A DNA stretch of 64,000 nucleotides from Uranotaenia lowii (taxonomy: Eukaryota > Arthropoda > Insecta > Diptera > Culicidae). The notes beneath the pieces were generated by a model, which had not been told where the DNA came from, searched no databases, and saw nothing but the letters and a program-made list of their open reading frames with translations. The stretch is taken from positions 87,985,361-88,049,360 of the forward strand of contig NC_073691.1 in NCBI RefSeq assembly GCF_029784155.1, written 5' to 3'. A program made the position numbers and the translations under genes. Shown one piece after another: positions 12,810 through 57,832 of the stretch; the stretch's first letter is position 1; every line of letters begins with the position of its first letter.

Positions 12810-15800
12810 TTATAGACGAAGGTCGATAGCTTTTAGAAAAAGGTAGATTTCGAACATGTAGTCCAAATCTAGCACAGCTAGTACATCTCTCACTGGAACA
12901 TTAGATGGTTTTCCTCGGGCCCTAAGGGAGTCTATTAAATTCGTTCTGGCGACAAGATGGACCTCACACGACCAAACAATATGCTCGATGTCATGGTAAC
13001 CTTGGCCGCAACTACACAAATTGCTGCCAGCAATGTCAAAACGATAGAGTACCGCGTCTAAGGAACAATGATTGGACATGAGACGGGAAAATATACGAAT
13101 AAAATCCCGACTCAGGTCCAACCTATTAAACCAGGGTTTAAGGCTTACCTTTGGGATAATCGAGTGGAGCCACCGACCATCCTCATCCTCGTCCCATTTG
13201 CGCTGCCAGTTGACAAGAGAGTTCCCTCGTACCAAGAAGTAGAATTCGTTGAAGACGATTTCACGTGGATACGTGTCGCCTTCCGTCGCCCCCACCTTTG
13301 CCAGAGAGTCTGCCTTCTCATTGCCCACTATCGAGCAATGAGAGGGAACCCAAACAAAGGTAATGGGAAAGCGACATCTTGTTAAAGCACTCAAAGTATC
13401 CCGTATCTTCTCTAGGAAGAACGGCGAGTGCTTTCCCGGTCGTATTGATCGTATTGCGTCAACTGAGCTTAGACTATCCGTTACAATGTAGTAGTGCCCA
13501 ACAGGCCGTGAGGCGATGCTGTCCAAGGCCCAGTGAATAGCAGCTAACTCTGCTATATACACAGAGCATGGAGACTGGAGGTTATAAGAGGCGCTAGTTG
13601 TTTCGTTGAACACTCCGAATCCCGTTGATTCCTCAATTAGAGACCCATCGGTAAAGTACATTTTGTCAGCATCGACGTGTCTATATTTAGCTTCGAAAAT
13701 TCTTGGAATCAGAAGTGGGCGATGCGAATCCGGGATTCCACGAATTTCCTGCTGCATAGACAAATCAAACTGGACAGAAGAATTATCGTAGTGTGGGCTG
13801 AAAACACGAGTTGGAGAGTACGAAGAAGGGTTTACCTGCATTGACATGAGGACATAGTATACAGACATAAATCTTGTTCGAAAATTTTGCTCAAGTAACC
13901 TTTCAAAATTAACGATCACCAATGGGTTCATGACCTCACATCTGATGAGGAACCGAAGTGATAGTAGATTGTATCGATCTTTCAAAGGGAGTATTCCTGC
14001 CAAAACTTCAAGACTCATGTTGTGCGTTGAGGGCATAGAGCCCATTGCGATGCGGAGACAACGGTATTGGATACGCTCGAGTTTGATGAGGTGAGATTTG
14101 GCAGCTGACTGGAAACAGAAGCTACCATATTCCATCACTGAAAGAATGGTTGTTCGATACAATTTTAAAAGATCTTCTGGGTGGGCTCCCCACCAGGTGC
14201 CTGTGATTGATCGGAGAAAATTTATTCTTTGTTGGCATTTTCCTTTCAGATACTCAATATGGGCTCTCCAGGTACACTTGGAGTCAAACCAAACCCCAAG
14301 ATACTTAAAACACCTCGATTGAGTGATCGTTCTGCCTAGGAGTTGAAGCTTCGGTTGAGCAGGTCTATGTTTCTTAGAGAAAACAACCATCTCCGTTTTC
14401 TGAGGGGAAAACTCAATCCCAAGCCCCAACGCCCAGGAAGACAATCTGTCTAAAGTATCTTGTAAAGGTCTGTGCAGATGAGACTCGGAAGATCCTGTGA
14501 CAGACACCACGCCGTCATCTGCAAGTTGTCTTAGAGTGCAGCCTTCAGAGAGACAACTATCGATGTCACTTACGTAAAAGTTGTACAAAAGTGGACTTAA
14601 ACATGAACCCTGTGGGAGGCCCATGTAGGAGGTTCTTCTAATTGCAATATCTCCGTGAGCAAAGTTCAGATGTTTCTCACAAAGCAAGCTGTATAAGATG
14701 TTGTTCAATAGTGGAGGCAGACCCCGGGAGTGCAACTTGTCTGACAACACCTCTATTGAGACTGCATCAAAAGCTCCCTTTATGTCTAGAAACACTGAAG
14801 CCATTTGCTCACGTTTTGCGTACGCCATTTGTATCTCTGAAGACAGCAAAGCAAGACAATCGTTTGTTCCTTTGCCCCTTCGAAACCCAAATTGAGTATC
14901 TGAAAGGAGACCATTTGTTTCTACCCATTTATCCAAACGAAACAAAATCATTTTCTCCATCAATTTACGTATACAAGACAACATCGCTATTGGACGGTAC
15001 GAATTCGCATCGGACGCTGGTTTTCCGGGCTTTTGGATAGCGATAACTCTCACTTGTCTCCACTCTTGGGGAACAATGTTATGCTCCAAGAATTGATTAA
15101 ATAAACTTAACAAACGAAATTTGGCGGCGTCCGGAAGGTTTTTCAACAAGTTAAATCTAATTTTATCAATACCCGGAGCTGAATTGTTGCAAGAGAGGAG
15201 GGCAAGTGAGAATTCGACCATCGAAAAACTGGAATCCAGACCACACCTTTCAGGAAGCACATCCCGGATTATTTTTTGTACAGGCGTAGAATCTGGACAG
15301 ACTTTCCGTGCAAAGTTAAATATCCATCTATGTGAATATTCCTCACTTTCATTCGTAGATGATCTATTACGCATGCTTCGTGCCACTCTCCACAAGGTAC
15401 TCAAGGATGTTTCTCTTGATAAGCCACCCACAAAATTCCTCCAATACGCCTTTTTCTTCCCCTTGACCAATTTTTTAAACTGATTTTCAAGGGAAACATA
15501 TACTTCAAAAAGGGCGAGAGTTCCATATTTCCGAAAATCTTTGAATGCTTTTGATTTGTCCTTATAAAGCTTGGAACACTGCTGGTCCCACCATGGGTTT
15601 GGAGGCCTTCGGGGAACTGATGAATCTGGGATGGGTTTTGTTTGAGCGCAAAGTGCACTTTCATGTATTAAACGTGAAAGAAAGTGGTACTCCTCTGCAG
15701 GAGGTAAAACATTCGTAGAACCGATTGCTGATGTTATTTCGTCCGAGTATTTTTTCCAGTCGATGTGTCTTGTAAGGTCATATGTCATATTTATTGTGTT

Positions 15801-16493
15801 TGAAGAGCTAACCCCATTGGTGATTGTAATTTTGATTGGCAAGTGATCACTACCATTGAGATCAGGGATTACCTTCCACTGGCAATCCAATGATAGTGAG
15901 TTTGAGCAGAGTGAGAGGTCAATTGCACTTTGTCTTGCAGGAGGTTTAGGTACTCGTGTTTTTTCACCCGTGTTCAAAATTGTTAAATTGAAACTGTCGC
16001 AAATGTCATAGATAAGAGTAGAACGACTATCGTCAATTTGTTCTCCCCAGACAGTTCCATGCGAATTAAAGTCACCCAGGATCAACCTTGGCTCAGGGAG
16101 CACTGAGCACAGGTCCTCTAGGTGACGTCGATCCACTGCAACTCTATGAGGCCAGTACAAACTGACAACGCATAAGTCCTTACCTCTTATAGTTGTATGA
16201 CATGCAACAGCTTCAATTCCTCCTGATAAAGGGAGGTGGATTCTATAGAAGGAGTGATGCTTATTGATCCCCAAAAGCACCCCTCCATAAGAATCGTCGC
16301 GGTCTAGACGTATGACATTAAAATCGTGGAATGAGATGTTAGATTGTGAAGAAAGCCAAGTTTCGGACAACGCAAAAATATCGCAACTAGTTTCATGAAG
16401 TAAAAATTTGAACGGGTCCAGTTTAGGGACGAGACTACGACAATTCCACTGTAAAACAGTGATATCTCCGACCTCTCGGCGTAAATTAGCCAT
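12810..16493 (-). CDS. ORF2 of I-clade LINE: endonuclease, reverse transcriptase, RNase H
   Basis: Uninterrupted 1227-residue frame starting at an ATG (16493-16491). The AP-endonuclease, which nicks target DNA to prime reverse transcription, occupies residues 1-230 with WNCRSL (16-21), SETWL (43-47), GDFN (140-143) and SDH (215-217). The RT region spans about 440-720 with SYRPIAMLS (498-506), QFGFRRGKGTND (534-545), FLDIKGAFDA (568-577), GLPQGS (625-630) and the catalytic ADD in QLADDGV (656-662). RNase H is at about 945-1070 with all four acidic residues: D949 in FTDGS, E982 in IAELAA, D1006 in VTDSL and D1062 in EKADSLA. A C-terminal cysteine/histidine cluster, CSCGQGYHDIEHIVWSC, closes the protein. 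All catalytic residues are present, so it could be active. It overlaps ORF1 by 8 bases (ATGGCTAA). Confidence 0.95.
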   Translation of the reverse strand: MANLRREVGDITVLQWNCRSLVPKLDPFKFLLHETSCDIFALSETWLSSQSNISFHDFNVIRLDRDDSYGGVLLGINKHHSFYRIHLPLSGGIEAVACHTTIRGKDLCVVSLYWPHRVAVDRRHLEDLCSVLPEPRLILGDFNSHGTVWGEQIDDSRSTLIYDICDSFNLTILNTGEKTRVPKPPARQSAIDLSLCSNSLSLDCQWKVIPDLNGSDHLPIKITITNGVSSSNTINMTYDLTRHIDWKKYSDEITSAIGSTNVLPPAEEYHFLSRLIHESALCAQTKPIPDSSVPRRPPNPWWDQQCSKLYKDKSKAFKDFRKYGTLALFEVYVSLENQFKKLVKGKKKAYWRNFVGGLSRETSLSTLWRVARSMRNRSSTNESEEYSHRWIFNFARKVCPDSTPVQKIIRDVLPERCGLDSSFSMVEFSLALLSCNNSAPGIDKIRFNLLKNLPDAAKFRLLSLFNQFLEHNIVPQEWRQVRVIAIQKPGKPASDANSYRPIAMLSCIRKLMEKMILFRLDKWVETNGLLSDTQFGFRRGKGTNDCLALLSSEIQMAYAKREQMASVFLDIKGAFDAVSIEVLSDKLHSRGLPPLLNNILYSLLCEKHLNFAHGDIAIRRTSYMGLPQGSCLSPLLYNFYVSDIDSCLSEGCTLRQLADDGVVSVTGSSESHLHRPLQDTLDRLSSWALGLGIEFSPQKTEMVVFSKKHRPAQPKLQLLGRTITQSRCFKYLGVWFDSKCTWRAHIEYLKGKCQQRINFLRSITGTWWGAHPEDLLKLYRTTILSVMEYGSFCFQSAAKSHLIKLERIQYRCLRIAMGSMPSTHNMSLEVLAGILPLKDRYNLLSLRFLIRCEVMNPLVIVNFERLLEQNFRTRFMSVYYVLMSMQVNPSSYSPTRVFSPHYDNSSVQFDLSMQQEIRGIPDSHRPLLIPRIFEAKYRHVDADKMYFTDGSLIEESTGFGVFNETTSASYNLQSPCSVYIAELAAIHWALDSIASRPVGHYYIVTDSLSSVDAIRSIRPGKHSPFFLEKIRDTLSALTRCRFPITFVWVPSHCSIVGNEKADSLAKVGATEGDTYPREIVFNEFYFLVRGNSLVNWQRKWDEDEDGRWLHSIIPKVSLKPWFNRLDLSRDFIRIFSRLMSNHCSLDAVLYRFDIAGSNLCSCGQGYHDIEHIVWSCEVHLVARTNLIDSLRARGKPSNVPVRDVLAVLDLDYMFEIYLFLKAIDLRL

Positions 16494-17794
16494 CGAGAGA
16501 GATAAACACTGAAAGAAGGGGCCAAGTTTGCATCAACTGCTTCAAAAATGTCTTAACCATAGGAAGCATTGCACTAACAATGCTTCTTATGGATTCAGAA
16601 ACGTTAAAAAACGTGAAAATTCCATTAAGTATGTCAGAAAACTTGAAAAGTCCCGGTTGATGAGTTGATTCTGACAAATCCGCATTAGTAACGGGAGCTT
16701 TTGAAGTCCCAGCTGCTGTTGAATTATTCTGTGGAGAAAAGGTCGCGCGGAATCCAGGAGGAATTTGTTTTTTCTTGTCTGTAGCAATCACTTTTTTGGT
16801 GATGTTGATTGGAGGGCTGATTGTCGGGATTTTATTCGGAATCTTAGGGGTCTTAGTAGTTGGTTTTGAACGTTTTCGCGAGTTCGCTACAAAAATAAAC
16901 GGGTTCTCCTCATCTGTTGTGTCCTCGTTGTCAACTGGCAGCACTGTGAAAATGTTACTGGACTGCGGTTGGATCGGAGGCGCCGCGCCCTTTAGTATGG
17001 CGGCATAGGAACGTTTTGACCGTTCCTTCAAAGAGCGCCTTTGACTATCCCAGCGGCTCTTAAACGCCTCGCACAAGGAGATGTCATGAGGTGAGCCCCC
17101 GCAATAGATACATTTCTGTTCTATTGCTGAGCATGCTCCATCCCCATGAACCTCCCCGCATTTGGGGCAACGCTTCTTGCTACAACAATGGGAAGCTGTA
17201 TGCCCCAATTTAATGCAATTTTTGCATTCCATCGGGCGAGGCACGAAGAGCCGCACAGGAAGCCTCAAAACTCCGTCAATCAAGACGTAGTGAGGGAGGG
17301 CGGTACCCGCAAAGGTCACTCGAAATGAAGCTGAAGGCGAGTACTTTTTAACTCCTTCTACGACGGTGGTAGTATTGAGTTGGCGGCAATCCAACGTGGT
17401 ACTCTAAATTAATGAATTTGCTGGCAACAATTTCATTAGCGGATTTATGATTGTCCACGACAACGCGCAACTTGTTTGGTCGCACCTTAGTAACGCAGGT
17501 TACGGAGGGCCACCTCGCCAGATCTTTAGTGATCTGCACTACGTTTAGCTGTTTGCCGTTAGCTTTGGGCCGGATGAAAACCACCCATGGCCCAGAAAAA
17601 GACGAACCATCTGTGTAGGTTCGGAGTCGAGGAGCTACACTGTCATCTGTGGGTGATGAAGAATTATTGGACGTACGAGAATGATTAGCACTTGAGGGAC
17701 CAGCATCGTCTGAATCCTCCAAATGCTCTTCATTCTCGTACATGGCTTCCTTTTCGTCCACCGATGACGAGTTTAACCCCCCGCCTTCGTTCAT
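16486..17794 (-). pseudogene. ORF1 (nucleic-acid-binding Gag-like protein) of I-clade LINE, one frameshift
   Basis: The first part starts at the ATG 17794-17792 (protein begins MNEGGGLNSS), is acidic and serine-rich, and includes GPWVVFIRPKANGKQLNVVQ. The frame is lost near 17394, where one extra base (+1) is needed to continue into LDCRQLNTTTVVEG in the next frame. The second part holds three consecutive CCHC zinc knuckles: CKNCIKLGHTASHC, CPKCGEVHGDGAC and CIYCGGSPHDISLC. A basic, proline-rich tail follows and ends at TAA (16488-16486). ORF1 proteins of this clade coat the LINE RNA in the cytoplasmic ribonucleoprotein. The stop overlaps the ORF2 start in ATGGCTAA, suggesting that ORF2 is made by termination-reinitiation. 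The frameshift is probably a mutation, though a sequencing error cannot be excluded. Confidence 0.88.
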
Positions 17795-18390
17795 ATTTTT
17801 GCACGGGAACACGAATGTCGCCCGTGTTTAAAATATGACCGAAGCAACCAAAATTCAAAATATGTACAGGGAAATAAATAGACGAGAGAATAGTGAAAAA
17901 ATGAAAAAAGAGACTTACAAAGGTTCTTGCACTTTTCAATTGCATGTATCTTCTTTTGTTCAGCAACCACGTGGTCCTCTTTGGAAGAAGATGGCGACCA
18001 AGTTGAGTCTTTGCTGCTGATGACGCTCTTGAACGCAAACGACCGATCCACCGAGATGTCCTGTATCCTGCTACCCACGGCAAACAGCACCGGAACCAAC
18101 GGTAACAGCTCCCACGTTATCCACACTCGGGTTTGTCGGGGGAACAATTAACACTTCCCCGATGGCGACAACACTCGCACCGATGATGATGGCCAGATAA
18201 AACTCACGCCAATTTCAATTTCGTGTCTCTGGAATTCGGCAAACGATTTGGTCGGTAGAAAAACAAACCACCACGTTCGGACTAACTGCACTGTCCGATT
18301 TCAAAAAAGCAGCGAGTTATAATAAAACACACTCCGATCGAAACGTTGGGAGAACACAACCGTTCAGCTTGAGCGATTGAGTTGGAATGG
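17795..18390 (-). promoter_or_regulatory. 5' UTR and presumed internal promoter of the I-clade LINE
   Basis: About 600 bp between the TSD-defined 5' end (minus-strand start CCATTCCAACTCAATCGC) and the ORF1 ATG. Short frames occur but have no motif. LINEs of this clade carry an RNA polymerase II promoter at their extreme 5' end; that function is inferred, not seen. Confidence 0.5.
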
Positions 18391-19249
18391 TCCGTTCTAA
18401 TCCTGTATTAAGGAACTTTCCGAAATCAAAGGAAATCAAGCTTGCGTTTGTGCCGATCTCGATAGAAAATTAAATGGCCGATGAATTCATTCCCAGTTAG
18501 TTTGTTATTTAACACTAAACATACCGACACTTTGTATATACCTATTCGTACCGCGAGCGGTCAAATGACGGCAAACACCGTTTTCGCTAAAACTCCCTTG
18601 TTTCTCAACCGATTTCTACCAAATTTATAGTTTTGAAAAGCTTATAATTCGACTCAAATATGCTTCTCAGACAATTTTCAGCTACATCAACAACTTTAAA
18701 GTTATTTACAGTACAAGATAAATTTTATGAAAAAACATGCTTCAGGAAAAAGGTTGTAAATCAGTTATTATGTGCTCGAAAAAATTTCACTTAGTGCCTG
18801 AGAAAGCTGAAGTTAGAAGCTATATGTTGCACATACAGAATTTTTTTTTAAAAACTTTCTAAGATCATGGCCACAAAAAATGTAAAAAAGTTGTGTAAAA
18901 CCCGTACTTTTCAATCAATCAACCGCCAAAGCTGTTCCTGTTACAGTAGAAAATTTTGAAAAAGTGAATTGAAAAGTAGACGTAATTTGTCACATTTTGG
19001 CATCTTTAGATTTTTAAAATAATAAATACATAATTTTTGACGGCTTTTCAAAGGTAGTTGTTTTGCGAACTTTTAACGAATCTGGATATTCTGAGACAAT
19101 CCCTACACCCAAATTCAGCTTTGCATTGGATTTTGAGTACGTTAACGTATAGTTTACGCTAGGCTTGCCAGATACTTTCAGAAAAAAGCGGGACATTTCA
19201 CGACAAAAAAGCGGGACATAGCCGAAAAAAGCGGAACATTTTAGAAACT

Positions 19250-31480: not shown

Positions 31481-31900
31481 ATATATATAGGTATATGATA
31501 AATCAAGCACCTAGACAGCATTGAAGCACGTTTTCTCTAAACTCATTTGGGTACTTATCTACCTCTGATTCTGAGGGCCTCAACTAAGAATTGTTGATAG
31601 ATTAATATCGTATTTGTTGTCATCTGGTGACCAACCAGTTATGCACTAACTGCTGTCATCTTCATATAAACAAATTCTTTGACAGAACTTAGTGCATAAC
31701 AAGTGGGCCACTAGGGTAAAAACAAATACGACATGATCAAATTAAAAAACATCAAGATACCTATATCTTTTGCTTGGTTTGAAGCTGTTTGAAGTAGTCC
31801 GAAAAAACACCAAAATAAGCTCCTATCATGGAAAATTGATAGAAAATAACGTGTAATTGATTGTTTGTTGTTCCAAATTGAATTTTTTGAGATAACAATC

Positions 31901-32541
31901 ACTGTCAATTCTACTAATCCCCGTTTTGGTCTCAGTTGGCTTTTGTATAAAAAATAAGATGTTTTTTTTTATAAGGATCGGTAAATTATTTTTTTTATTG
32001 TGTTTTTTTCATCGAAATGAAAATTACAGATTAAAATTAATGAAACCTTCATGATGCAAATCAGATTTTTATTATTAGTGTCAAATAAAATGATTCCACT
32101 TAGTTGTACTTTTAAAAATTGATGCCTTATTTATAAATAAATTATTTTAATATCAACAAATTTTATTAAAAAATACTGAAGCTAGGTTTGCTATTAAACA
32201 AAAATCTATATAAGATTCTACTAATACTGTCAATTCTACTAATCCCCGTTTTGGTCTCAGTTGGCTTTTGTATAAAAAATAAGATGTTTTTTTTTATAAG
32301 GATCGGTAAATTATTTTTTTTATTGTGTTTTTTTCATCGAAATGAAAATTACAGATTAAAATTAATGAAACCTTCATGATGCAAATCAGATTTTTATTAT
32401 TAGTGTCAAATAAAATGATTCCACTTAGTTGTACTTTTAAAAATTGATGCCTTATTTATAAATAAATTATTTTAATATCAACAAATTTTATTAAAAAATA
32501 CTGAAGCTAGGTTTGCTATTAAACAAAAATCTATATAAGAT
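31901..32541. repeat. Near-identical tandem duplication, 325-bp period
   Basis: 31901-32216 recurs at 32226-32541 with no difference seen by eye, separated by the junction TTCTACTAAT, which also lies near the start of each unit. The short homology suggests a recent slippage or unequal-exchange event. It lies in the subterminal array of the CCCGAGCAGAC-type right end and shares phrases such as TTTGGTCTCAG and GATGCCTTA with the flanking degenerate units (32545-32835). Confidence 0.9.
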
Positions 32542-32849
32542 TGGGTTAACTGTTTGCTGTTGATAGCTTATTGTGGTTTCAGCATGCATTTCAATTAAAA
32601 CTATTGACGCCTTAATAATGCCTAATGTTGCTTTCACGGAAAGCTAACAGCAAATGTTGCTCTAATTTTGCTGTTGACAGCTGTTTTTGGTCTCAGCATG
32701 CCATTAAATGAAAATTTCTGAAACCTTAATGATGCCTTATTTTGCTATCATACAAAAGACAACAGCAAATTCTGCTGTCATTTTGATGTTGACAGCCTAT
32801 TTTGGTCTCAGTTTGCTATCGTTTTGGGCATCAATGTCTGCTCGGGTTA

Positions 32850-33890: not shown

Positions 33891-35159
33891 AAAAAAAGCG
33901 GGACATTTTGAGAAAAAAGCGGGACAGCGGGACATTCAACAAAAAAGCGGGACATGTCCCGCTTTTGCGAAACGGATGGCAACCCTAGTTTAGGCAATAA
34001 ACTATATGCAAAAGAAAGCAAATTTCATGCCGGTTTTAGTGATGTAACTGCATTGGCGGTGCAATGCTTTACAAAAATATAATAAATATATTTCTGAAAG
34101 TAAAACCAGAAAATTTGGGCTAGTGCTTGTTTGTTTTTTCGTTTCTTTTCATTCGTCTTCGTGTGCAAAATAGCTTTGAGATATTACCACCCACTGCGTT
34201 CGTCTGCCAAGCAAGAATTTGTGCGGACTTCTCAAAATTCAGAAACTAGTTCACTGTTTTATTTATCATATTTTTGCCAAGCATTGCACCGCCAATGCAG
34301 TTACACCACTAGAACCGGTATGAAATAAGCTTTCTTTTGCATCAGTTTTATTGCCTAAACTTTACGTTAACGTACTCAAAATCCAGTGCAAAATTGAGCT
34401 TAGGTGTAGGAATTGTCTGAGAAAATCCAAATTGATAAAAAGTTCGAAAAACAGCTACCTTTGAATAGCCGTCATAAATTATGTATTTCGTCTTTCAAAA
34501 ATCTAAAGATGCCAAAATGTGACAAATTACGTCTACTTTTCAATTCACTTTTTCAAAATTTTCTACTGTAACAGGAACAGCTTTGGCGGTTGATTGATTG
34601 AAAAGTACGGGTTTTACACAACTTTTTTACATTTTTTGTGGCCATGATCTTAGAAAGTTTTTAAAAAAAATTTCCGTATGTGCAACATATAGCTTCTAAC
34701 TTCAGCTTTCTCAGGCACTAAATGAAATTTTTTTTCGAGCACTTAATAACTGATTTACAACCTTTTTCCTGAAGCATGTTTTTTCATAAAATTTATCTTG
34801 TACTGCAAATAACTTTGAAATTATTGATTGTAGCTGAAAATTGTCTGAGAAAAATATTTGAGTCGAATTATAAGCTTTTCAAAACTATAAATTTGGTAGA
34901 AATCGGTTGAGAAACAAGGGAGTTTTAGCGAAAACGGTGTATGCCGTCATTTGACCGCTCGCGGTATGAATAGGTATACCACATGCGTTATTCGAAAACC
35001 GTAACACTTAAAAAAAAATTAAAAACGCAAAAATACTTGCATTTCAAAAACAAAAATAGTCCTGTCGTTAAATTTGCTAAAAAACAATTATATAAGGCGT
35101 AATCATCGTTTAAAGTTCAAAAACCGTCATTTGACCGCCTCCGGTACGTTTAGTGTTAA

Positions 35160-44120: not shown

Positions 44121-44125
44121 CCAGG

Positions 44126-44534
44126 TGTGGTATATAGGAGTAATGGTCTTTAATATAAATAAAAAATATCATGGTGAACAAATATAAGAAAAAAATCCAA
44201 TGAAAAATAATTGAATCACAAATTTGATTCAGTGTGTAAAGATATTGAACAGTGCGATACTCCAACTGAACGAACCCGAGTTGAAAACTTCGTTCATTCT
44301 TCTCGTGAAGTTAATGCTCTCTTTTACTGCTACACGTGGTATAACAAGAGTGGAAAAGAGAGGAGACTTCTTTGCCTGGCGCCTGTCTGATAAACGGCTG
44401 ACTTAAACAGAAGATTCAGTTTGTTGAATATTGTTCGAGAGCACGCACGCTTTAATATATCGTGCGACAGCGGGTTTAGTATTCAGCGCTAAACGACCCT
44501 ACATCATGCTGAAATGGGAGCGTAGGTTACGACA
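44126..44534 (+). repeat. LTR 1 (409 bp)
   Basis: Begins TGTGGTATATAGG and ends GTAGGTTACGACA. It appears identical to LTR 2 by eye. A 60-codon frame is shared by all three LTRs but is most likely incidental. The outside flank is the TSD copy CCAGG. Confidence 0.92.
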
Positions 44535-44549
44535 TGGCGCAGTCGGTAG
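44535..44549 (+). promoter_or_regulatory. Primer-binding site, internal region A
   Basis: TGGCGCAGTCGGTAG starts immediately after the LTR and is complementary to a tRNA-Ser 3' end reading CTACCGACTGCG plus CCA. The tRNA identity is recalled from the Drosophila serine tRNA, not searched. Confidence 0.8.
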
Positions 44550-47500
44550 TGCGCGGAACGCTGCACTTAGTAAGTATAAGCTTAAGAGGTAGAAATTAAA
44601 AGAATGGAAAGTATAGAAAAAATAATCGAGAGAAATGCTAATGGCGGATGGAAAAATTTGTGCACGGTGAAAAAAAAAAATGAAAGATGGAAAACCAAAT
44701 AACTTGTGTGGAAAAAAAAGAAAACGATTGATGAGAGAAAATTAAATGGTTGGCGAAAAAAAATAAATGAACGTCAGAATAAAAACTGTTTTAAAAAGTG
44801 AAAAGTAAGCAAGGAAAAAATAAATGTCTTGCCAAGATGAAGCCAAGAAAAAATAAAGGTACGGCAAAGATAAAGAGAAAAAGCAATGAAAAAATAAATG
44901 TGTTGCTATGATGAAGCCGAAAAAATAAACGTACGGCAAAGATAAAACAAATTGAAACGAGGATGAAAAAAAAATTGTTTGGGAAAAAAGGCAATGGAAA
45001 ATGTGAATGAAATAAGGAAGACGGAAAATTAAAAAAAAACAATGAAAAGTTAAAAAAAAACCAATTTAGAAAAATGCGAAAAAAAAAACAAAACAGAACT
45101 TTAAAAAAAAGTTTATAGATAAATGATGAAATAAGGAAGGAGAGAAGTACAAAAAAAAAAGTTGAATATAGGATTAACCGAAAAGACGAATTAGCCTGAA
45201 AAAAAACGAAAAAGTAAAAAAAAAGTTGAGCATATGGCAAAAAAAAAGATTGAAAAATACGTGTTGCGAAAAACAAACGAATAAAAGTTGACATAAATCA
45301 ACAAATATGGGAAAACAGATGATGACTAAAAAAAAAACAAAATGAATTCCTCTGAAAAATCAAGAAAATAGAATGAAAACGTCATAAAATAGAAAAAGCG
45401 ATGAAGGAAATAAGTAAAAAAAAACAAAAGTAGGTAGGAATGGGAAAAATATGGTGAATAGATATTTCTATAAGATCAATTAGAAAAAAATGGATGAAGA
45501 AAAATAATTAGTTAAAAAAAAAAAGATAGTGAAAGAAGAATTTGATACAAGTTCAACAGTTGAAAACTTCTTAAATATATATGGGAGAAGGAATATCACT
45601 CAAAAAAAAAAAAAACCAAGGTGAGCAATAAAAAAAACGATAATTAAGGAAAATAATGAGGCAGAGAAAATGAGAAGGTTGGTAATATGAAAATTTAATA
45701 CAAATTGAAAAGTTGAAAATTTCTTAAATATATAAAGGAGAAGGAAAATCACGTAAAAAACCAGAGGTGAGCATGCAATAAAAAAAAACGAAAAGAAAGA
45801 TTTGTTAAGAAAAGAATTAAGCAGCGAAAATAAGAAGGTTTGTAATATAAAAATAAACTTTATGAAGTATGACTGAAAATGCCAGAAGAAATGTTAAACT
45901 GATAAAAAAAATAAAAGAGAATATCCAAAAAAAATCGTCAAAGGAAATAAAACGAGAATGGTGAACACAAAAAAAACAAAAGTTAAAAAGAAAAAGAAAA
46001 GAGGGAAACAAAGTTGACAAACTAAAACAAAACAAGATATGATAAAAAAAATTTAAAAAAAAAAAAGATAAGGTTGATTATAAGATCATTTGTGAGAACT
46101 GAATTCACTGAAAATGCTTGAAAGGGATATAATATAACAGAAAAAACGAAAATATCATTGTAAACAGAAGCAACCAAGACAAAAAAACAAAAAAATTAAA
46201 AGATTGATATAAATGTATTGCGAAAAAAAACGAGTAACAGTGAAAATAAATCAATATGGGAGAAAAGATGGTGACTCCAAAAAGTTATAGAATAAATAAA
46301 GCAAAAAAAAAGCGATGAATTCATAAAAAGAAGTCAAAATAAAAAAAAAACGAAAATCCGAACCAGACCAAAAAAAAAAATTAAAAATGTGAAAGAAGGA
46401 TTCAATTCAAGTTCAATTAATGATTTTAAAATGCATATGGGAGAAGACTTATCACGTTAAAATAAACCAATGAGAAAAAAAACAAAATTCAATTATGAAA
46501 AGAAGAGGAAAATCAGTAGCTGAATAATAATAATAATAATAAAAAAAACTTAATTAAGTATTACTAATGCCAAAAGTTGAGTTTTATAGAGAATTGGAAA
46601 AGGCAAATATACAAAAAAAAACCATCAATGGGAATAAAACAAAAATGGCGAAAGAAAAAAAAAATAGGAAAAGGAACAAAGTTGGCAAACTTAAAAAAAA
46701 TGTTATAAAACTAAATAACATATGATAATAAATAAATAAAAGAAAAACGGAAAAGCTGACATTGGATCATATGCTAATATGGTATGATCAGAATGTACTG
46801 AAATTGTTGAAAGGGATATAACAAATAAAAAAAAACAGACTACGCAAAATCAAAATATAAGCATCTTAAGAAAGTAGATGATTTAGTAAAAAAAGAAAGG
46901 GAAATTAAAAAAAAATGAAAACATCCTTAAAAGGATTGAAAAGACAAATAAAAAAAACTTGAGTGAGGAATAGAAAAGTGAAAAAAAAATGACAAGCAAA
47001 AAAAGAGAAGATCGTAAATGGATTAATGCAAAATGAAAAAAGAGGAATTTTGAGAAAATAAAATAATTTTATGATGTTATGCACAACAAAAACGATACAA
47101 ATTAAATGTGGAGCAAGCAAAACTAGCGGTTGATATAAGATGGAATTTAAGATAAAAGATTTTAATCTCAATTCAAAGGCTATTACAAAATGAAAATTAA
47201 AGGTTACATGATTTGGGTTCAATATTCATTACTCATTCGCTTGATTGGATACAACGTTCCATATTCAAATTGAATATTATGTTTGTGTTTCAAGATTAAA
47301 TTTTGTATCCAGAATCACACTTTGAGTTTCAACTGCATTGATGAATTGACGAAAAAAAACAGATTTAAAACGCATATTCAGAAATCTGACTCTGAAATTG
47401 TGAGTCACAATTAAGATGAACTGAAGTTTCGACCCTGACCAAACAATGATGACTTAGTTTATAAATCAAGTTCGGATTTATGATTTAAATTGAATTAACA

Positions 47501-48414
47501 TAAACGAGGTCAATACACATGACTCAAGATTCAAAAGGAAATTAAGATAGTCAAAGTTGCGTTAAAAAAAGGAAGATACAACATTCAAAATTTATATTTA
47601 ACTGATTTCAATCAGTTTTCGTTGAGGATTCGGTTATACAATGATAAACTAAGATTATTATGTGTGTTCAGGATTTTCATTGTGAAAAACTAGATTAAAA
47701 AAAAGGATCATCATTCCAAATTGCATTCCGATTTTAAACTTCAAGACTGTGATTTAAGATTGAAACTGATCTATCTATCTGATTAATATAGATAATAATT
47801 ATTGTATATTTTATATTCGTAACTAAGATTGTTTAAAAAAAAAAAGAAACTCAATTCATTATCCAGTTTCAAAGCGTAACTGTGGGCTAAGCACTCATCA
47901 AATCAGATTCAGAATGAAGGTACTGATTTTGTATTCATATTGCAATTGATACCTAAGATTCAGATTTGAATCAGTAAAAAATCCAGATTGGTATATCATA
48001 TCATATATCAAGGATTCAAAGTAAAAATTTGTGACTCTGTTGCAAATTCGTTAGGATAAGGAATTTTAAAATTTAAGAATCAGATTCAAGATTAAAATAA
48101 TGCATTCAGGTTCAGTTAAGTTTCAGGTTCAAGAATGTTACTTAAGATTCAGACTTAACTTTGAGTTCATGTTTAAGCATAATTCAAAAAAAAATATGAT
48201 TGATATTCAAGGACCAGATTCGAAGATTGATTTCCAATTCATATCCTACATTAAATTGCATCAATAAGATATAAAATCAAGCTTCATGACTCAAACACAA
48301 GATTTCAAAAAAAAGATTTGGGCTCAAGATTCAGACACTCTCTCACAATTTATTTTTGAGATACAGATAAAGCTCAGCATAAAAAAAAATGGAAATAAGG
48401 TTTAAGTGGCAAAT
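44550..48414. other. Internal region A: purine-rich then AAGATTCA-rich low-complexity sequence
   Basis: From about 44560 to 47190 the plus strand is strongly purine-biased, with A runs of 6-11 separated by short GA-rich words. From about 47230 to 48414 the sequence changes to degenerate repeats of words such as AAGATTCAGATT. Long minus-strand frames in the first part (rich in Phe, Leu, Ser) follow from the A runs. No retroviral domain is present on either strand. Confidence 0.7.
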
Positions 48415-48428
48415 TTAAGACTAAGATT

Positions 48429-49049
48429 ATTTTTATTTACATATTATTCCGTCTCACGACATAACTTGACGAACATAATTCCTAAAATTCACTCGGTTCA
48501 TAGCCACCGTTCTCCAATTTCTCGGGCACCCCACGTTCGCCAGATCACGCTCCACTTGGTCTAACCACCTCGCTCGTTGCGCCCCCGCTCGTCTTGTTCC
48601 TACCGGATTCGTAGCGAACACCTGTTTTGCAGGACAGTCGTCCGGCATTCTCGCAACATGTCCCGCCCAGCGTATCCGGCCAGCCTTCACCACCTTCTGG
48701 ATACTGGGTTCGCCGTAGAGTCGCGCGAGCTCGTGGTTCATCCTTCGCCTCCACACTCCGTTCTCCTGTACGCCGCCAAAGATGGTTCTTAACACTCGTC
48801 GCTCGAATACTCCGAGTGTACGCAGGTCCTCCTCGAGCAATATCCATGTCTCGTGCCCGTAGAGAACAACCGGTCTAATAAGCGTCATATGCAGGTTACA
48901 CTTCGTGCGAGGGCTAAGTCTTCTCGACCGCAGTTGCTTGTGGAGTCCATAGTAGGCACGACTTCCGCTGATAATTCGCCTCCGGATCTCACGGCTGGTG
49001 TCATTTTCTGCGGTCACCAGTGAGCCGAGATAGACAAAGTCTTTTTTTT
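48429..49049 (-). mobile_element. 5'-truncated RTE LINE inserted in internal region A
   Basis: TTAAGACTAAGATT occurs on both sides (48415-48428 and 49050-49063) and once at the matching place in internal region B, so the insertion and its 14-bp TSD can be read directly. On the minus strand the insert starts in the RT C-terminal domain and ends with ACGGAATAATATGTAAATAA and AAAT. At its 5' junction there is a run of about nine A that is absent from the related RTE copy at 57206-57230. Confidence 0.92.
48454..49017 (-). pseudogene. RTE LINE C-terminal coding fragment
   Basis: A 187-codon minus-strand frame with the blocks GSRAYYGLHKQLRSRRLS, KCNLHMTLIRPVVLYGHETW, LEEDLRTLGVFERRVLRTIF, RIRWAGHVARMPDD and RARWLDQVERDL, ending FRNYVRQVMS. 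This is the typical C-terminus of insect RTE-clade polyproteins. It lacks endonuclease and catalytic RT, so it is a dead 5' truncation, but its frame is undamaged. It closely matches the decayed copy at 57240-57800. Confidence 0.88.
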
Positions 49050-49413
49050 TTAAGACTAAGATTTTAAACTATGACTTAAGACTCAAAATCAAGCTTCATA
49101 TGAAAATTTTCAGATTTACTTTTTTAAAATTATAATTTTTTTCAGTTACAAATACCAGGTAAAATGCTGAATTCTAAATTTGACTGAAAATTGTGGTTCA
49201 TCATGGAATTTAAGATTAAAAAAAATCAAATTCTGAATTGAATTCAAAAGAGTTTGGAAAAAACATTCAGATTTCAATTTATTTCGGATTGAAAATTTAA
49301 ACAAGAGATTCAATGAAAAAAAATGTTGAAGGTTATGATCAAATTTTAAGATAACAACGAGATTCAAAATTACTCAATCAAGCATTATTCATAAAATCAA
49401 CTAAATCAAGAGT

Positions 49414-49428
49414 AGAGAAGAAGGGTAA
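49414..49428 (+). promoter_or_regulatory. Polypurine tract before LTR 2
   Basis: AGAGAAGAAGGGTAA abuts the TGTGG start of LTR 2 and is repeated exactly before LTR 3 (54075-54089). Position and composition fit the plus-strand primer of LTR elements. Confidence 0.65.
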
Positions 49429-49837
49429 TGTGGTATATAGGAGTAATGGTCTTTAATATAAATAAAAAATATCATGGTGAACAAATATAAGAAAAAAATC
49501 CAATGAAAAATAATTGAATCACAAATTTGATTCAGTGTGTAAAGATATTGAACAGTGCGATACTCCAACTGAACGAACCCGAGTTGAAAACTTCGTTCAT
49601 TCTTCTCGTGAAGTTAATGCTCTCTTTTACTGCTACACGTGGTATAACAAGAGTGGAAAAGAGAGGAGACTTCTTTGCCTGGCGCCTGTCTGATAAACGG
49701 CTGACTTAAACAGAAGATTCAGTTTGTTGAATATTGTTCGAGAGCACGCACGCTTTAATATATCGTGCGACAGCGGGTTTAGTATTCAGCGCTAAACGAC
49801 CCTACATCATGCTGAAATGGGAGCGTAGGTTACGACA
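49429..49837 (+). repeat. LTR 2 (409 bp), shared between the two units
   Basis: Same ends as LTR 1 and no difference seen by eye. It serves as 3' LTR of unit A and 5' LTR of unit B. No CCAGG lies at either of its edges, so the middle LTR was not created by a separate insertion into the RTE. Confidence 0.92.
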
Positions 49838-49852
49838 TGGCGCAGTCGGTAG
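49838..49852 (+). promoter_or_regulatory. Primer-binding site, internal region B
   Basis: TGGCGCAGTCGGTAG again directly follows the LTR, matching the tRNA-Ser 3' end as in unit A. Confidence 0.8.
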
Positions 49853-52800
49853 TGCGCGGAACACTGCACTTAGTAAGTATAAGCTTAAGAGGTAGAAATT
49901 AAAAGAATGGAAAGTATAGAAAAAATAATCGAGAGAAATGCTAATGGCGGATGGAAAAATTTGTGCACGGTGAAAAAAAAAATGAAAGATGGAAAACCAA
50001 ATAACTTGTGTGGAAAAAAAAGAAAACGATTGATGAGAGAAAATTAAATGGTTGGCGAAAAAAAATAAATGAACGTCAGAATAAAAACTGTTTTAAAAAG
50101 TGAAAAGTAAGCAAGGAAAAAATAAATGTCTTGCCAAGATGAAGCCAAGAAAAAATAAAGGTACGGCAATGATAAAGAGAAAAAGCAATGAAAAAAATTA
50201 ATGTGTTGCTATGATGAAGCCGAAAAAATAAACGTACGGCAAAGATAAAACAAATTGAAACGAGGATGAAAAAAAAATTGTTTGGGAAAAAAGGCAATGG
50301 AAAATGTGAATGAAATAAGGAAGACGGAAAATTAAAAAAAAAACAATGAAAAGTTAAAAAAAAGCCAATTTAGAAAAATGCGAAAAAAAAAGCAAAACAG
50401 AATTTTAAAAAAAAGTTTATAGATAAATGATGAAATAAGGAAGGAGAGAAGTACAAAAAAAAAGTTGAATATAGGATTAACCGAAAAGACGAATTAGCCT
50501 GAAAAAAACGAAAAACTAAAAAAAAAGTTGAGCATATGGCAAAAAAAAAAGATTGAAAAATACGTGTTGCGAAAAACAAACGAATAAAAGTTGACATAAA
50601 TCAACAAATATGGGAAAACAGATGATGACTAAAAAAAAAACAAAATGAATTCCTCTGAAAAATCAAGAAAATAGAATGAAAACGTCATAAAATAGAAAAA
50701 GCGATGAAGGAAATAAGTAAAAAAAAACAAAAGTAGGTAGGAATGGGAAAAATATGGTGAATAGATATTTCTATAAGATCAATTAGAAAAAAATGGATGA
50801 AGAAAAATAATTAGTTAAAAAAAAAGATAGTGAAAGAAGAATTTGATACAAGTTCAACAGTTGAAAACTTCTTAAATATATATGGGAGAAGGAATATCAC
50901 TCAAAAAAAAAAACCAAGGTGAGCAATAAAAAAAACGATAATTAAGGAAAAGAATGAGGCAGAGAAAATGAGAAGGTTGGTAATATGAAAATTTAATACA
51001 AATTGAAAAGTTGAAAATTTCTTAAATATATAAAGGAGAAGGAAAATCACGTAAAAAACCAGAGGTGAGCATGCAATAAAAAAAAACGAAAAGAAAGATT
51101 TGTTAAGAAAAGAATTAAGCAGCGAAAATAAGAAGGTTTGTAATATAAAAAAAAACTTTATGAAGTATGACTGAAAATGCCAGAAGAAATGTTAAACTGA
51201 TAAAAAAAAATAAAAGAGAATATCCAAAAAAAAATCGTCAAAGGAAATAAAACGAGAATGGTGAACACAAAAAAAACAAAAGTTAAAAAGAAAAAGAAAA
51301 GAGGGAAACAAAGTTGACAAACTAAAACAAAACAAGATATGATAAAAAAAATTTAAAAAAAAAAGATAAGGTTGATTATAAGATCATTTGTGAGAACTGA
51401 ATTCACTGAAAATGCTTGAAAGGGATATAATATAACAGAAAAAACGAAAATATCATTGTAAACAGAAGCAACCAAGACAAAAAAACAAAAAAATTAAAAG
51501 ATTGATATAAATGTATTGCGAAAAAAAACGAGTAACAGTGAAAATAAATCAATATGGGAGAAAAGATGGTGACTCCAAAAAGTTATAGAATAAATAAAGC
51601 AAAAAAAAAAGCGATGAATTCATAAAAAGAAGTCAAAATAAAAAAAAAACGAAAATCCGAACCAGACCAAAAAAAAAATTAAAAATGTGAAAGAAGGATT
51701 CAATTCAAGTTCAATTAATGATTTTAAAATGCATATGGGAGAAGACTTATCACGTTAAAATAAACCAATGAGAAAAAAAACAAAATTCAATTATGAAAAG
51801 AAGAGGAAAATCAGTAGCTGAATAATAATAATAATAATAAAAAAAACTTAATTAAGTATTACTAATGCCAAAAGTTGAGTTTTATAGAGAATTGGAAAAG
51901 GCAAATATACAAAAAAAAAACCATCAATGGGAATAAAACAAAAATGGCGAAAGAAAAAAAAATAGGAAAAGGAACAAAGTTGGCAAACTTAAAAAAAAAA
52001 TGTTATAAAACTAAATAACATATGATAATAAATAAATAAAAGAAAAACGGAAAAGCTGACATTGGATCATATGCTAATATGGTATGATCAGAATGTACTG
52101 AAATTGTTGAAAGGGATATAACAAATAAAAAAAAACAGACTACGCAAAATCAAAATATAAGCATCTTAAGAAAGTAGATGATTTAGTAAAAAAAGAAAGG
52201 GAAATTAAAAAAAAATGAAAACATCCTTAAAAGGATTGAAAAGACAAATAAAAAAAACTTGAGTGAGGAATAGAAAAGTGAAAAAAAAATGACAAGCAAA
52301 AAAAGAGAAGATCGTAAATGGATTAATGCAAAATGAAAAAAGAGGAATTTTGAGAAAATAAAATAATTTTATGATGTTATGCACAACAAAAACGATACAA
52401 ATTAAATGTGGAGCAAGCAAAACTAGCGGTTGATATAAGATGGAATTTAAGATAAAAGATTTTAATCTCAATTCAAAGGCTATTACAAAATGAAAATTAA
52501 AGGTTACATGATTTGGGTTCAATATTCATTACTCATTCGCTTGATTGGATACAACGTTCCATATTCAAATTGAATATGATGTTTGTGTTTCAAGATTAAA
52601 TTTTGTATCCAGAATCACACTTTGAGTTTCAACTGCATTGATGAATTGACGAAAAAAAACAGATTTAAAACGCATATTCAGAAATCTGACTCTGAAATTG
52701 TGAGTCACAATTAAGATGAACTGAAGTTTCGACCCTGACCAAACAATGATGACTTAGTTTATAAATCAAGTTCGGATTTATGATTTAAATTGAATTAACA

Positions 52801-54074
52801 TAAACGAGGTCAATACACATGACTCAAGATTCAAAGGAAATTAAGATAGTCAAAGTTGCGTTAAAAAAAGGAAGATACAACATTCAAAATTTATATTTAA
52901 CTGATTTCAATCAGTTTTCGTTGAGGATTCGGTTATACAATGATAAACTAAGATTATTATGTGTGTTCAGGATTTTCATTGTGAAAAACTAGATTAAAAA
53001 AAAGGATCATCATTCCAAATTGCATTCCGATTTTAAACTTCAAGACTGTGATTTAAGATTGAAACTGATCTATCTATCTGATTAATATAGATAATAATTA
53101 TTGTATATTTTATATTCGTAACTAAGATTGTTTAAAAAAAAAGAAACTCAATTCATTATCCAGTTTCAAAGCGTAACTGTGGGCTAAGCACTCATCAAAT
53201 CAGATTCAGAATGAAGGTACTGATTTTGTATTCATATTGCAATTGATACCTAAGATTCAGATTTGAATCAGTAAAAAATCCAGATTGGTATATCATATCA
53301 TATATCAAGGATTCAGAGTAAAAATTTGTGACTCTTTTGCAAATTCGTTAGGATAAGGAATTTTAAAATTTAAGAATCAGATTCAAGATTAAAATAATGC
53401 ATTCAGGTTCAGTTAAGTTTCAGGTTCAAGAATGTTACTTAAGATTCAGACTTAACTTTGAGTTCATGTTTAAGCATAATTCAAAAAAAATATGATTGAT
53501 ATTCAAGGACCAGATTCGAAGATTGATTTCCAATTCATATCCTACATTAAATTGCATCAATAAGATATAAAATCAAGCTTCATGACTCAAACACAAGATT
53601 TCAAAAAAAAGATTTGGGCTCAAGATTCAGACACTCTCTCACAATTTATTTTTGAGATACAGATAAAGCTCAGCATAAAAAAAAATGGAAATAAGGTTTA
53701 AGTGGCAAATTTAAGACTAAGATTTTGAACTATGACTTAAGACTCAAAATCAAGCTTCATATGAAAATTTTCAGATTTACTTTTTTAAAATTATAATTTT
53801 TTTCAGTTACAAATACCAGGTAAAATGCTGAATTCTAAATTTGACTGAAAATTGTGGTTCATCATGGAATTTAAGATTAAAAAAAATCAAATTCTGAATT
53901 GAATTCAAAAGAGTTTGGAAAAAACATTCAGATTTCAATTTATTTCGGATTGAAAATTTAAACAAGAGATTCAATGAAAAAAAATGTTGAAGGTTATGAT
54001 CAAATTTTAAGATAACAACGAGATTCAAAATTACTCAATCAAGCATTATTCATAAAATCAACTAAATCAAGAGT
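49853..54074. other. Internal region B, low-complexity and non-coding
   Basis: Colinear with internal region A apart from homopolymer length changes and isolated substitutions. The RTE insertion is absent: the uninterrupted target reads TTAAGACTAAGATTTTG at about 53710-53726. No gag-pol domain. Confidence 0.8.
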
Positions 54075-54089
54075 AGAGAAGAAGGGTAA

Positions 54090-54497
54090 TGTGGTATATA
54101 GGAGTAATGGTCTTTAATATAAATAAAAAATATCATGGTGAACAAATATAAGAAAAAAATCCAATGAAAAATAATTGAATCACAAATTTGATTCAGTGTG
54201 TAAAGATATTGAACAGTGCGATACTCCAACTGAACGAACCCGAGTTGAAAACTTCGTTCATTCTTCTCGTGAAGTTAATGCTCTCTTTTACTGCTACACG
54301 TGGTATAACAAGAGTGGAAAAGAGAGGAGACTTCTTTGCCTGGCGCCTGTCTGATAAACGGCTGACTTAAACAGAAGATTCAGTTTGTTGAATATTGTTC
54401 GAGAGCACGCACGCTTTAATATATCGTGCGAAGCGGGTTTAGTATTCAGCGCTAAACGACCCTACATCATGCTGAAATGGGAGCGTAGGTTACGACA
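54090..54497 (+). repeat. LTR 3 (408 bp)
   Basis: Matches LTRs 1 and 2 but lacks one base (GTGCGAAGCGGG instead of GTGCGACAGCGGG, near 54427). Followed directly by the second TSD copy CCAGG and the resumed RTE linker. Confidence 0.92.
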
Positions 54498-54502
54498 CCA
54501 GG

Positions 54503-56892: not shown

Positions 56893-57832
56893 AATGGTCT
56901 ATTCTGCATGATGTTCCAAATGGCGCTAGAAGGTGTTATTCGACGAAAGCGGTGGGCGAAATGCCAGGGACGATTTTCAACAGATCCAGTCAACTTATCT
57001 GCTTTGCCGACGACATTGACATAGTCGACAGATCATCTGCGACGATGAAGGAAATCTATCGCAAATTGAAACGCGAAGCTGGAAGGATTAGGTTGACGAT
57101 TAATACGCCTAAGACGAAGTATAGGCTGGCCTGTGGATCCGAGACCACCCGAACCCGCACGTCTAGTTATAATAAGGTCTCGATCAATGGCGACGAGCTG
57201 GAGATAGCCGAAGACTTTGTCTATCTCGGTTCACTGGTAATTGCAGACAATGACACCAGCCGTGAGATCCAGTGGGGAATGATCAGCGGAAGTCGTGCCT
57301 ACTATGGACTCCACAAGCAACTGCGGTCGAGAAGACTTAGCCCTCGCACGAAGTGTAACCTGTATATGACGCTCATTAGACCGGTTGCTCTCCGCGAGCA
57401 CGAGACATGGATATTGCTCGAAGAGGACTTGCGAACACTCGGATTATTCACGCGACGAGTGTTTAGAACCATCTTTGGCGGCGTACAGAAGAACGGAGTG
57501 TGGAGGCGAAGGATGAATCAACAGCTCGCGCAACCCTACGGCGAACCTAGAAACCAGAAGGTTGTGAAGGCTAGTTGGATTCGCTAGGCAGGCAAGGTCG
57601 CGAGAATGCCGAACAACTGTCCTGCAAAACAGGTGTTCGCTGCGAGTCCGGTTGGACCGATGTAGGTAGGTGGGCGCAACGAGCGTGGTGGTTAGACCAA
57701 ATGGAGCGTGATCTGGCGAATGTGGGATGCCCGAGAAGTTGGAGACCTGTTGCTATGGACCGAGTGAGTTTTAGGAATTATGTTCGTCTAGTTATGTCGT
57801 GAGACGGAATACTACGAAAATAAAAATAATAA
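56893..57832 (+). pseudogene. RTE LINE fragment 4: RT catalytic block and C-terminus
   Basis: The frame resumes with LFCMMFQMALEG, then LICFADDIDIVDRSS (catalytic ADD at about 57006-57014), DFVYLGSLVIADNDTSREIQ, GSRAYYGLHKQLRSRRLS and further C-terminal blocks. A stop is at 57585-57587 and a frame change leads into the final FRNYVRLVMS (to 57802). The 3' end reads GTGAGACGGAATACTACG followed by AAAATAAAAATAATAA. The same terminal block closes the copy at 48429-49049. Together with the three upstream pieces this is one RTE element of about 2.6 kb net. Confidence 0.85.

Follow-up and report, generated by a model that had tools for sequence, protein, structure and literature searches.

A tandem dimer of a gag-pol-less LTR retroelement with a single outer target-site duplication in the Uranotaenia lowii assembly

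Uranotaenia lowii is a culicine mosquito. We analyzed a 64,000-nucleotide stretch of its genome assembly (NC_073691.1, positions 87,985,361 to 88,049,360; hereafter, the window), in which an initial annotation had described a dimeric long terminal repeat (LTR) retroelement without gag or pol. Recomputing the repeat structure from the window, we found three LTRs that alternate with two non-coding internal regions at 44126-54497, all on the plus strand. Repeat comparison places LTR1 at 44126-44534 (409 bp), the shared middle LTR2 at 49429-49837 (409 bp), and LTR3 at 54090-54497 (408 bp), in agreement with the annotated lengths of 408-409 bp. LTR1 and LTR2 are exactly identical; LTR3 lacks a single C at alignment column 343 and shows 0 substitutions in 408 aligned positions. 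Every LTR starts with TGTGG and ends with ACGACA, giving TG...CA termini. The direct sequence also agrees with the earlier statement that the target-site duplication (TSD), CCAGG, lies at the outer edges only (44121-44125 and 54498-54502, plus strand). At the unit junction (49428/49429), the polypurine tract joins the LTR directly, without a target duplication. The tandem dimer of a gag-pol-less LTR element with a single outer TSD is therefore real in the assembly.

Both flanks of the dimer belong to one RTE copy. We joined these flanks into a 303-nt query that kept one CCAGG and searched the assembly with it. All 40 scored places (the best 40 of 679 candidates) gave one match each, across the junction, at 84-86% identity; 38 of them ran from query base 21-25 to the end, one started at base 45, and one stopped two bases short. 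Three RTE copies without the insert, whose alignments were read (L056, L057, and L058), are gap-free at the junction and carry CCAAG instead of CCAGG. Once the insert is removed, the RTE reading register is continuous over the junction. The initial annotation had gone further, with an RTE frame restored on removal of the 10.4 kb; the register bears this out, but an intact frame does not exist, as the window's RTE copy contains in-frame stops. The empty-site comparison strongly supports a single insertion into an old RTE copy with a 5-bp duplication and, together with the TSD and the identical LTRs, argues for a single net insertion.

The unit 1 internal region (44535-49428, plus strand) is A-rich over its first ∼2.5 kb and contains a nested RTE insert, and the unit 2 internal region (49838-54089, plus strand) measures 4252 bp. 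A primer-binding site lies directly at the start of each (44535-44549 and 49838-49852), and the polypurine tract AGAGAAGAAGGGTAA closes each (49414-49428 and 54075-54089), all on the plus strand. Both sites and both tracts were thus located where their presence had been claimed. All 15 nt of each primer-binding site are complementary to the 3′ terminus, CCA included, of a tRNA-Ser(AGA) from the same genome, which ARAGORN calls at all six loci examined out of 15 pattern sites. Neither tRNA genes nor Rfam families were found in the 64-kb window.

Neither unit was seen to encode gag or pol, again as annotated. The longest open frame of the unit 2 internal region spans 62 codons on the plus strand and 106 on either strand, and tblastn with gag and pol frames taken from two elements of the same genome, L048 (Ty3/gypsy) and L039 (BEL/Pao), gave no match at E ≤ 1, in a database without a positive control. 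We found neither the DUF1759-type gag and Pao-type pol that mark BEL/Pao elements, of which a 5-bp TSD alone is not diagnostic, nor the gag and reverse transcriptase-RNase H-integrase (RT-RH-IN) of Ty3/gypsy elements, there being no match with the L048 gag and pol frames. The element has LTRs, a primer-binding site, and a polypurine tract around a kilobase-scale protein-less core, which are features of a large retrotransposon derivative (LARD). In unit 2, the internal region is ∼55% A over its first 2.5 kb and ∼40% A beyond; the A-rich part holds 50 A-runs of at least 6, and 200 composition shuffles averaged 31 and never exceeded 45.

We also observed that 14 nt near the LTR 3′ end (TGGGAGCGTAGGTT, window 44515-44528) equal the sense T-arm of tRNA-Ser(AGA). 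This identity adjoins the site that binds the same tRNA, and 0 of 20000 shuffles reached 14. It was noticed post hoc, and three relatives (L014, L015, and L038) match the T-arm over only 5-6 nt at the TGGGAGCGTAGGTT position; for both reasons, we build no mechanism on it.

The two units are 99.7% alike, with 13 substitutions (0.3%) over 4,259 internal positions compared and 19 indels of 1-3 bases, every one in A-runs. Unit 1 alone carries a 620-bp RTE 3′ fragment (48429-49048, minus strand; 88.9% identical to 57211-57830), which the initial annotation did not include. Repeat comparison shows the fragment between two copies of TTTAAGACTAAGATT, a 15-bp duplication (48414-48428 and 49049-49063, plus strand), and unit 2 has one copy of TTTAAGACTAAGATT (53710-53724). 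The 13 substitutions are not significantly clustered (scan p = 0.25), so we rejected clustered differences as a sign of mixed templates. Given 13 substitutions in the internal regions, the chance of observing 0 in the LTRs is unremarkable (P = 0.17). The unit differences speak against a plain duplication of the same reads.

A search of the assembly with the 409-bp LTR gave 12 matches (9 of 9 candidates scored), three of which are the LTRs of the dimer. One solo LTR of the same family lies on contig C2; it is 97-99% identical, is split by an insert of ∼225 bp, and is flanked by the TSD GTGTT. Older LTR relatives, at 67-86% identity, are also among the 12 matches. One of them (L015) is a solo LTR with the TSD TTCAC, and another (L014) is a 3′ LTR that follows a like polypurine tract and an A-rich stretch; its 5′ LTR was looked for and not found. 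This LTR search revealed no second copy of the dimer element elsewhere in the assembly. The 3′ part of the internal region (52300-54089) had at least 41 matches (16 of 16 candidates scored), three of them inside the dimer. The other matches, at least 38, are 66-69% identical and confined to query bases 1063-1333, which we take for repeat-like sequence. Among the matches listed, none represents a further copy of the internal 3′ part in the assembly; the internal 5′ part was not searched alone. The genome search that the initial annotation had proposed, for solo, single, and multimeric copies, has thus yielded a solo LTR, a single-unit relative (see below), and no further dimer.

The LTR end TTACGACA together with the primer site, at up to 2 mismatches, was found at 18 sites, of which the window holds two, versus 0 in the reversed control. 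One scan each of viral contigs and of prokaryote genomes gave 0 matches to these patterns. Over the 500 bases that follow the LTR, A content reaches at least 49% at 10 of the 18 sites (8 of the 16 outside the window) and lies at 28-40% at the other 8. Among the outside loci, four of 16 (L022, L024, L030, and L036) were read over several kb and the others over 1.5 kb; ∼53-56% A extends over at least 2 kb in the three that were read to this length (the window, L014, and L038). Polypurine-tract sites numbered 122, versus 13 in the reversed control. Twelve have at most 1 mismatch: two lie in the window, six each have a single partner among the 16 outside primer sites, 2.4-5.9 kb upstream, and four have none. 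Of the six paired relatives, L023 and L024 have a confirmed 3′ LTR. The latter (L024/L038) is a complete single-unit relative with 416-bp LTRs that are 100% identical, the TSD CAATG, and no plus-strand frame that reaches 100 codons in its interior. Eight matches (8 of 8 candidates scored) make up its LTR family, with no shared-LTR array among them. An ankyrin-type open frame with 46% identity to a Uranotaenia lowii protein adjoins L038. Two primer sites that lie 28 kb apart (L025 and L026) were considered as a second dimer and rejected: upstream of the primer site, the match between L025 and L026 covers only 137 bp, no polypurine tract precedes the L026 LTR, and each primer site has its own tract.

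We then compared interiors, using the first 1.4 kb of seven primer-site relatives and the A-rich piece of L014 against the window, with L022 and L025 left out. Seven of these eight were not above dinucleotide shuffles, and L027 was above all 60. By alignment, L022 resembles the window in parts of its first ∼390 bases (73% of 185 and 84% of 57), after which a nested non-LTR element follows. Interiors within the group thus appear mostly, not wholly, unalignable. Nine loci (L021, L023, L024, L025, L026, L027, L028, L032, and L014) look like whole or partial LTR elements without protein genes; near the 5′ end most have an A content of ∼50% or higher, and ends and composition are kept and sequence largely not. 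It is a doubtful idea that the dimer belongs to a mosquito lineage of protein-less LTR elements in which high A content persists together with the LTR end, the polypurine tract, and the primer site while most of the interior is replaced past recognition. Base composition, rather than sequence or protein, would then be conserved, perhaps for packaging or for escape from silencing. An A-rich, protein-less group with common ends and largely different interiors is the wider point worth following.

The initial annotation had also called for an autonomous partner with the same LTR and tRNA-Ser primer site. Our search for one with the same LTR end and primer site found none, and the coding candidates (L030 and L036) were ruled out. 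In L030/L039, the group's LTR end and primer site are present and a BEL/Pao gag-pol starts 4.9 kb downstream; this gag-pol lies between two identical LTRs of its own (C3:221855432 and C3:221863839) and so belongs to a nested element. L036/L048, which has gag and RT-RH-IN, is of the Ty3/gypsy type and has in common with the group only TACGACA and the primer site's first 12 nt; TG is missing from the start of its repeat, and no TSD was seen. A similar gag-like frame is also present at a further locus, L033. A partner, if found, would reveal which features an element has to retain in order to be moved by another.

The three-LTR, two-core anatomy is already described in plants and humans, and the dimer is another case. 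In the sections available to us, Sabot and Schulman (2007; PMC1950507) report complex insertions in Triticeae, rice, and maize, with an internal LTR, two cores, and, in four named cases, flanking 5-bp TSDs. All three features by which that text defines such insertions are present here: an internal LTR between two complete cores, a flanking TSD, and similar outer LTRs. Those insertions are plant elements, two of them Angela-like Copia, whereas ours is non-coding and in an insect. In the available part of a study of maize Wukong terminal-repeat retrotransposons in miniature (TRIMs; PMC4528315), 8 of 89 intact elements have three LTRs and others have four, six, or seven; the majority of these multi-LTR elements have TSDs, and unequal crossing-over and recombination between adjacent elements are invoked. 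The latter does not fit one outer TSD as well. Cassandra arrays, in the corresponding part of a paper that also describes LARDs and TRIMs (PMC7215508), are likewise ascribed to unequal crossing-over. Wukong and Cassandra resemble the dimer in having no gag-pol and several tandem LTRs; however, TRIMs as described there have almost no internal domain, while each unit of the dimer has 4.2-4.3 kb of its own internal sequence. The human HERV-K (HML-2) tandem proviruses at 7p22.1 and 6q14.1 have three LTRs and two internal regions and are polymorphic in people (PMC11807958, in part, citing Reus 2001). They are coding, and TSDs are not discussed in the text searched, from which the term "target site" is absent. 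The initial annotation was right about a dimer with one TSD but overstated the surprise, the anatomy being in print in the parts of PMC1950507, PMC4528315, and PMC11807958 cited above.

Also close are 38 non-coding LTR families (cqUNK) of Culex quinquefasciatus, which have no master copy according to the part of PMC3286476 available. Compared by description only, they share with the dimer element a mosquito host, the absence of coding sequence, an LTR, a primer-binding site (for tRNA-Ser in several of the families), a polypurine tract, a TSD of mostly 5 bp where one is given, internal tandem repeats, and the failure to find a master copy. Those parts of PMC3286476 mention no dimers and no A-rich composition. 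No insect dimer appeared by title in the literature searched, which is not evidence that none is in print, and, by title and abstract start, nothing there was on the subject of A-rich non-autonomous LTR elements or of Uranotaenia lowii elements.

The initial annotation had named LTR-LTR recombination, a concatemer, and a circular copy as candidate mechanisms, which we judge to be the right set. On balance, we lean toward unequal LTR-LTR exchange having duplicated one insertion of a LARD-like element in the old RTE copy. A LARD-like non-coding LTR retrotransposon would have inserted once with a 5-bp duplication, presumably by the reverse transcriptase and integrase of another element acting in trans. 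With no genes in the element, neither unit is able to supply proteins. The unit would later have been doubled when sister chromatids or homologues paired out of register and the 3′ LTR of one exchanged with the 5′ LTR of the other, which gives LTR-internal-LTR-internal-LTR within the original TSD. Later, it seems, the RTE fragment entered unit 1, and ∼0.3% substitutions and the A-run changes gathered; the differences are visible, and their order is our reconstruction. We prefer unequal exchange because solo LTRs with intact TSDs occur in the family and among its kin, a second donor is not seen, and each relative that could be paired has one unit. The solo LTRs (GTGTT and TTCAC) are the deletion counterpart of the exchange and so point to LTR-LTR recombination in this family and its kin, and the lack of a visible donor follows from the search with the internal 3′ part. 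Unclustered substitutions are also as expected after one duplication. If so, the dimer would add a further clear case of LTR-LTR duplication, this one from an insect and from a gene-less element.

Several points weigh against unequal exchange. The LTRs hold no informative variants, so integration of a dimeric cDNA cannot be separated from it; 0 LTR versus 13 internal substitutions would also suit two slightly different template RNAs; and solo LTRs can arise by within-strand exchange, which makes no dimers. A false join is possible in what is assembled sequence only, and no single-unit allele is known at the site in this one assembly. Dimeric cDNA integration is probably a rarer event than LTR-LTR exchange. 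A dimeric cDNA that arose when reverse transcription switched templates between two co-packaged RNAs, or when cDNAs were joined, and that integrated once, would yield three near-identical LTRs, two cores, and one flanking TSD, but the matches listed include no further source copy for the internal 3′ part, and the six paired relatives have one primer site and one tract each. We consider this route fairly unlikely, even though template switching is proposed for cereal elements of such anatomy in the part of PMC1950507 available.

An assembly artefact, in which two alleles of a single element were joined via their LTRs, is in our view unlikely. The substitutions (0.3%), A-run lengths, and presence or absence of the insert resemble allelic differences, and because alleles can differ in just these ways, the divergence of the units is compatible with such a false join. 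The assembly may also retain a haplotype elsewhere: L030 and L031 (C3:221852964 and C3:222681507) are 99.3% identical over 3 kb and lie 829 kb apart on C3, which possibly reflects either a retained haplotype or a 0.8-Mb duplication. On the other side, searches of the assembly turned up neither another copy of the element nor, among the 40 places scored, an empty site of near-identical sequence, although a collapsed allele would show neither, and long reads, if they went into the assembly, would have crossed a 409-bp LTR with ease. An integrated single copy might instead have recombined with extrachromosomal cDNA or with a one-LTR circle from its own family, which would likewise be expected to leave one outer TSD and a shared middle LTR; however, that route depends on an active source copy, which the assembly searches did not reveal, and we regard it as very improbable.

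At L030 and L031, each locus has a tRNA-Ser(AGA)-type site ∼97 kb upstream; the BEL/Pao element has two LTRs at one, and a single LTR was among the matches listed at the other (best 40 of 76). Elsewhere in the window, two ∼620-bp repeats form an inverted pair 15 kb apart (18537-19159 and 34353-34978, 94% identical), and a direct repeat of ∼321 bp lies nearly head to tail at 31897-32542 (99.7% identical). On the minus strand, positions 12810-17827 hold non-LTR retrotransposon-like frames, one open over 1240 codons, with putative endonuclease, reverse transcriptase, and RNase H-like segments as judged by eye.

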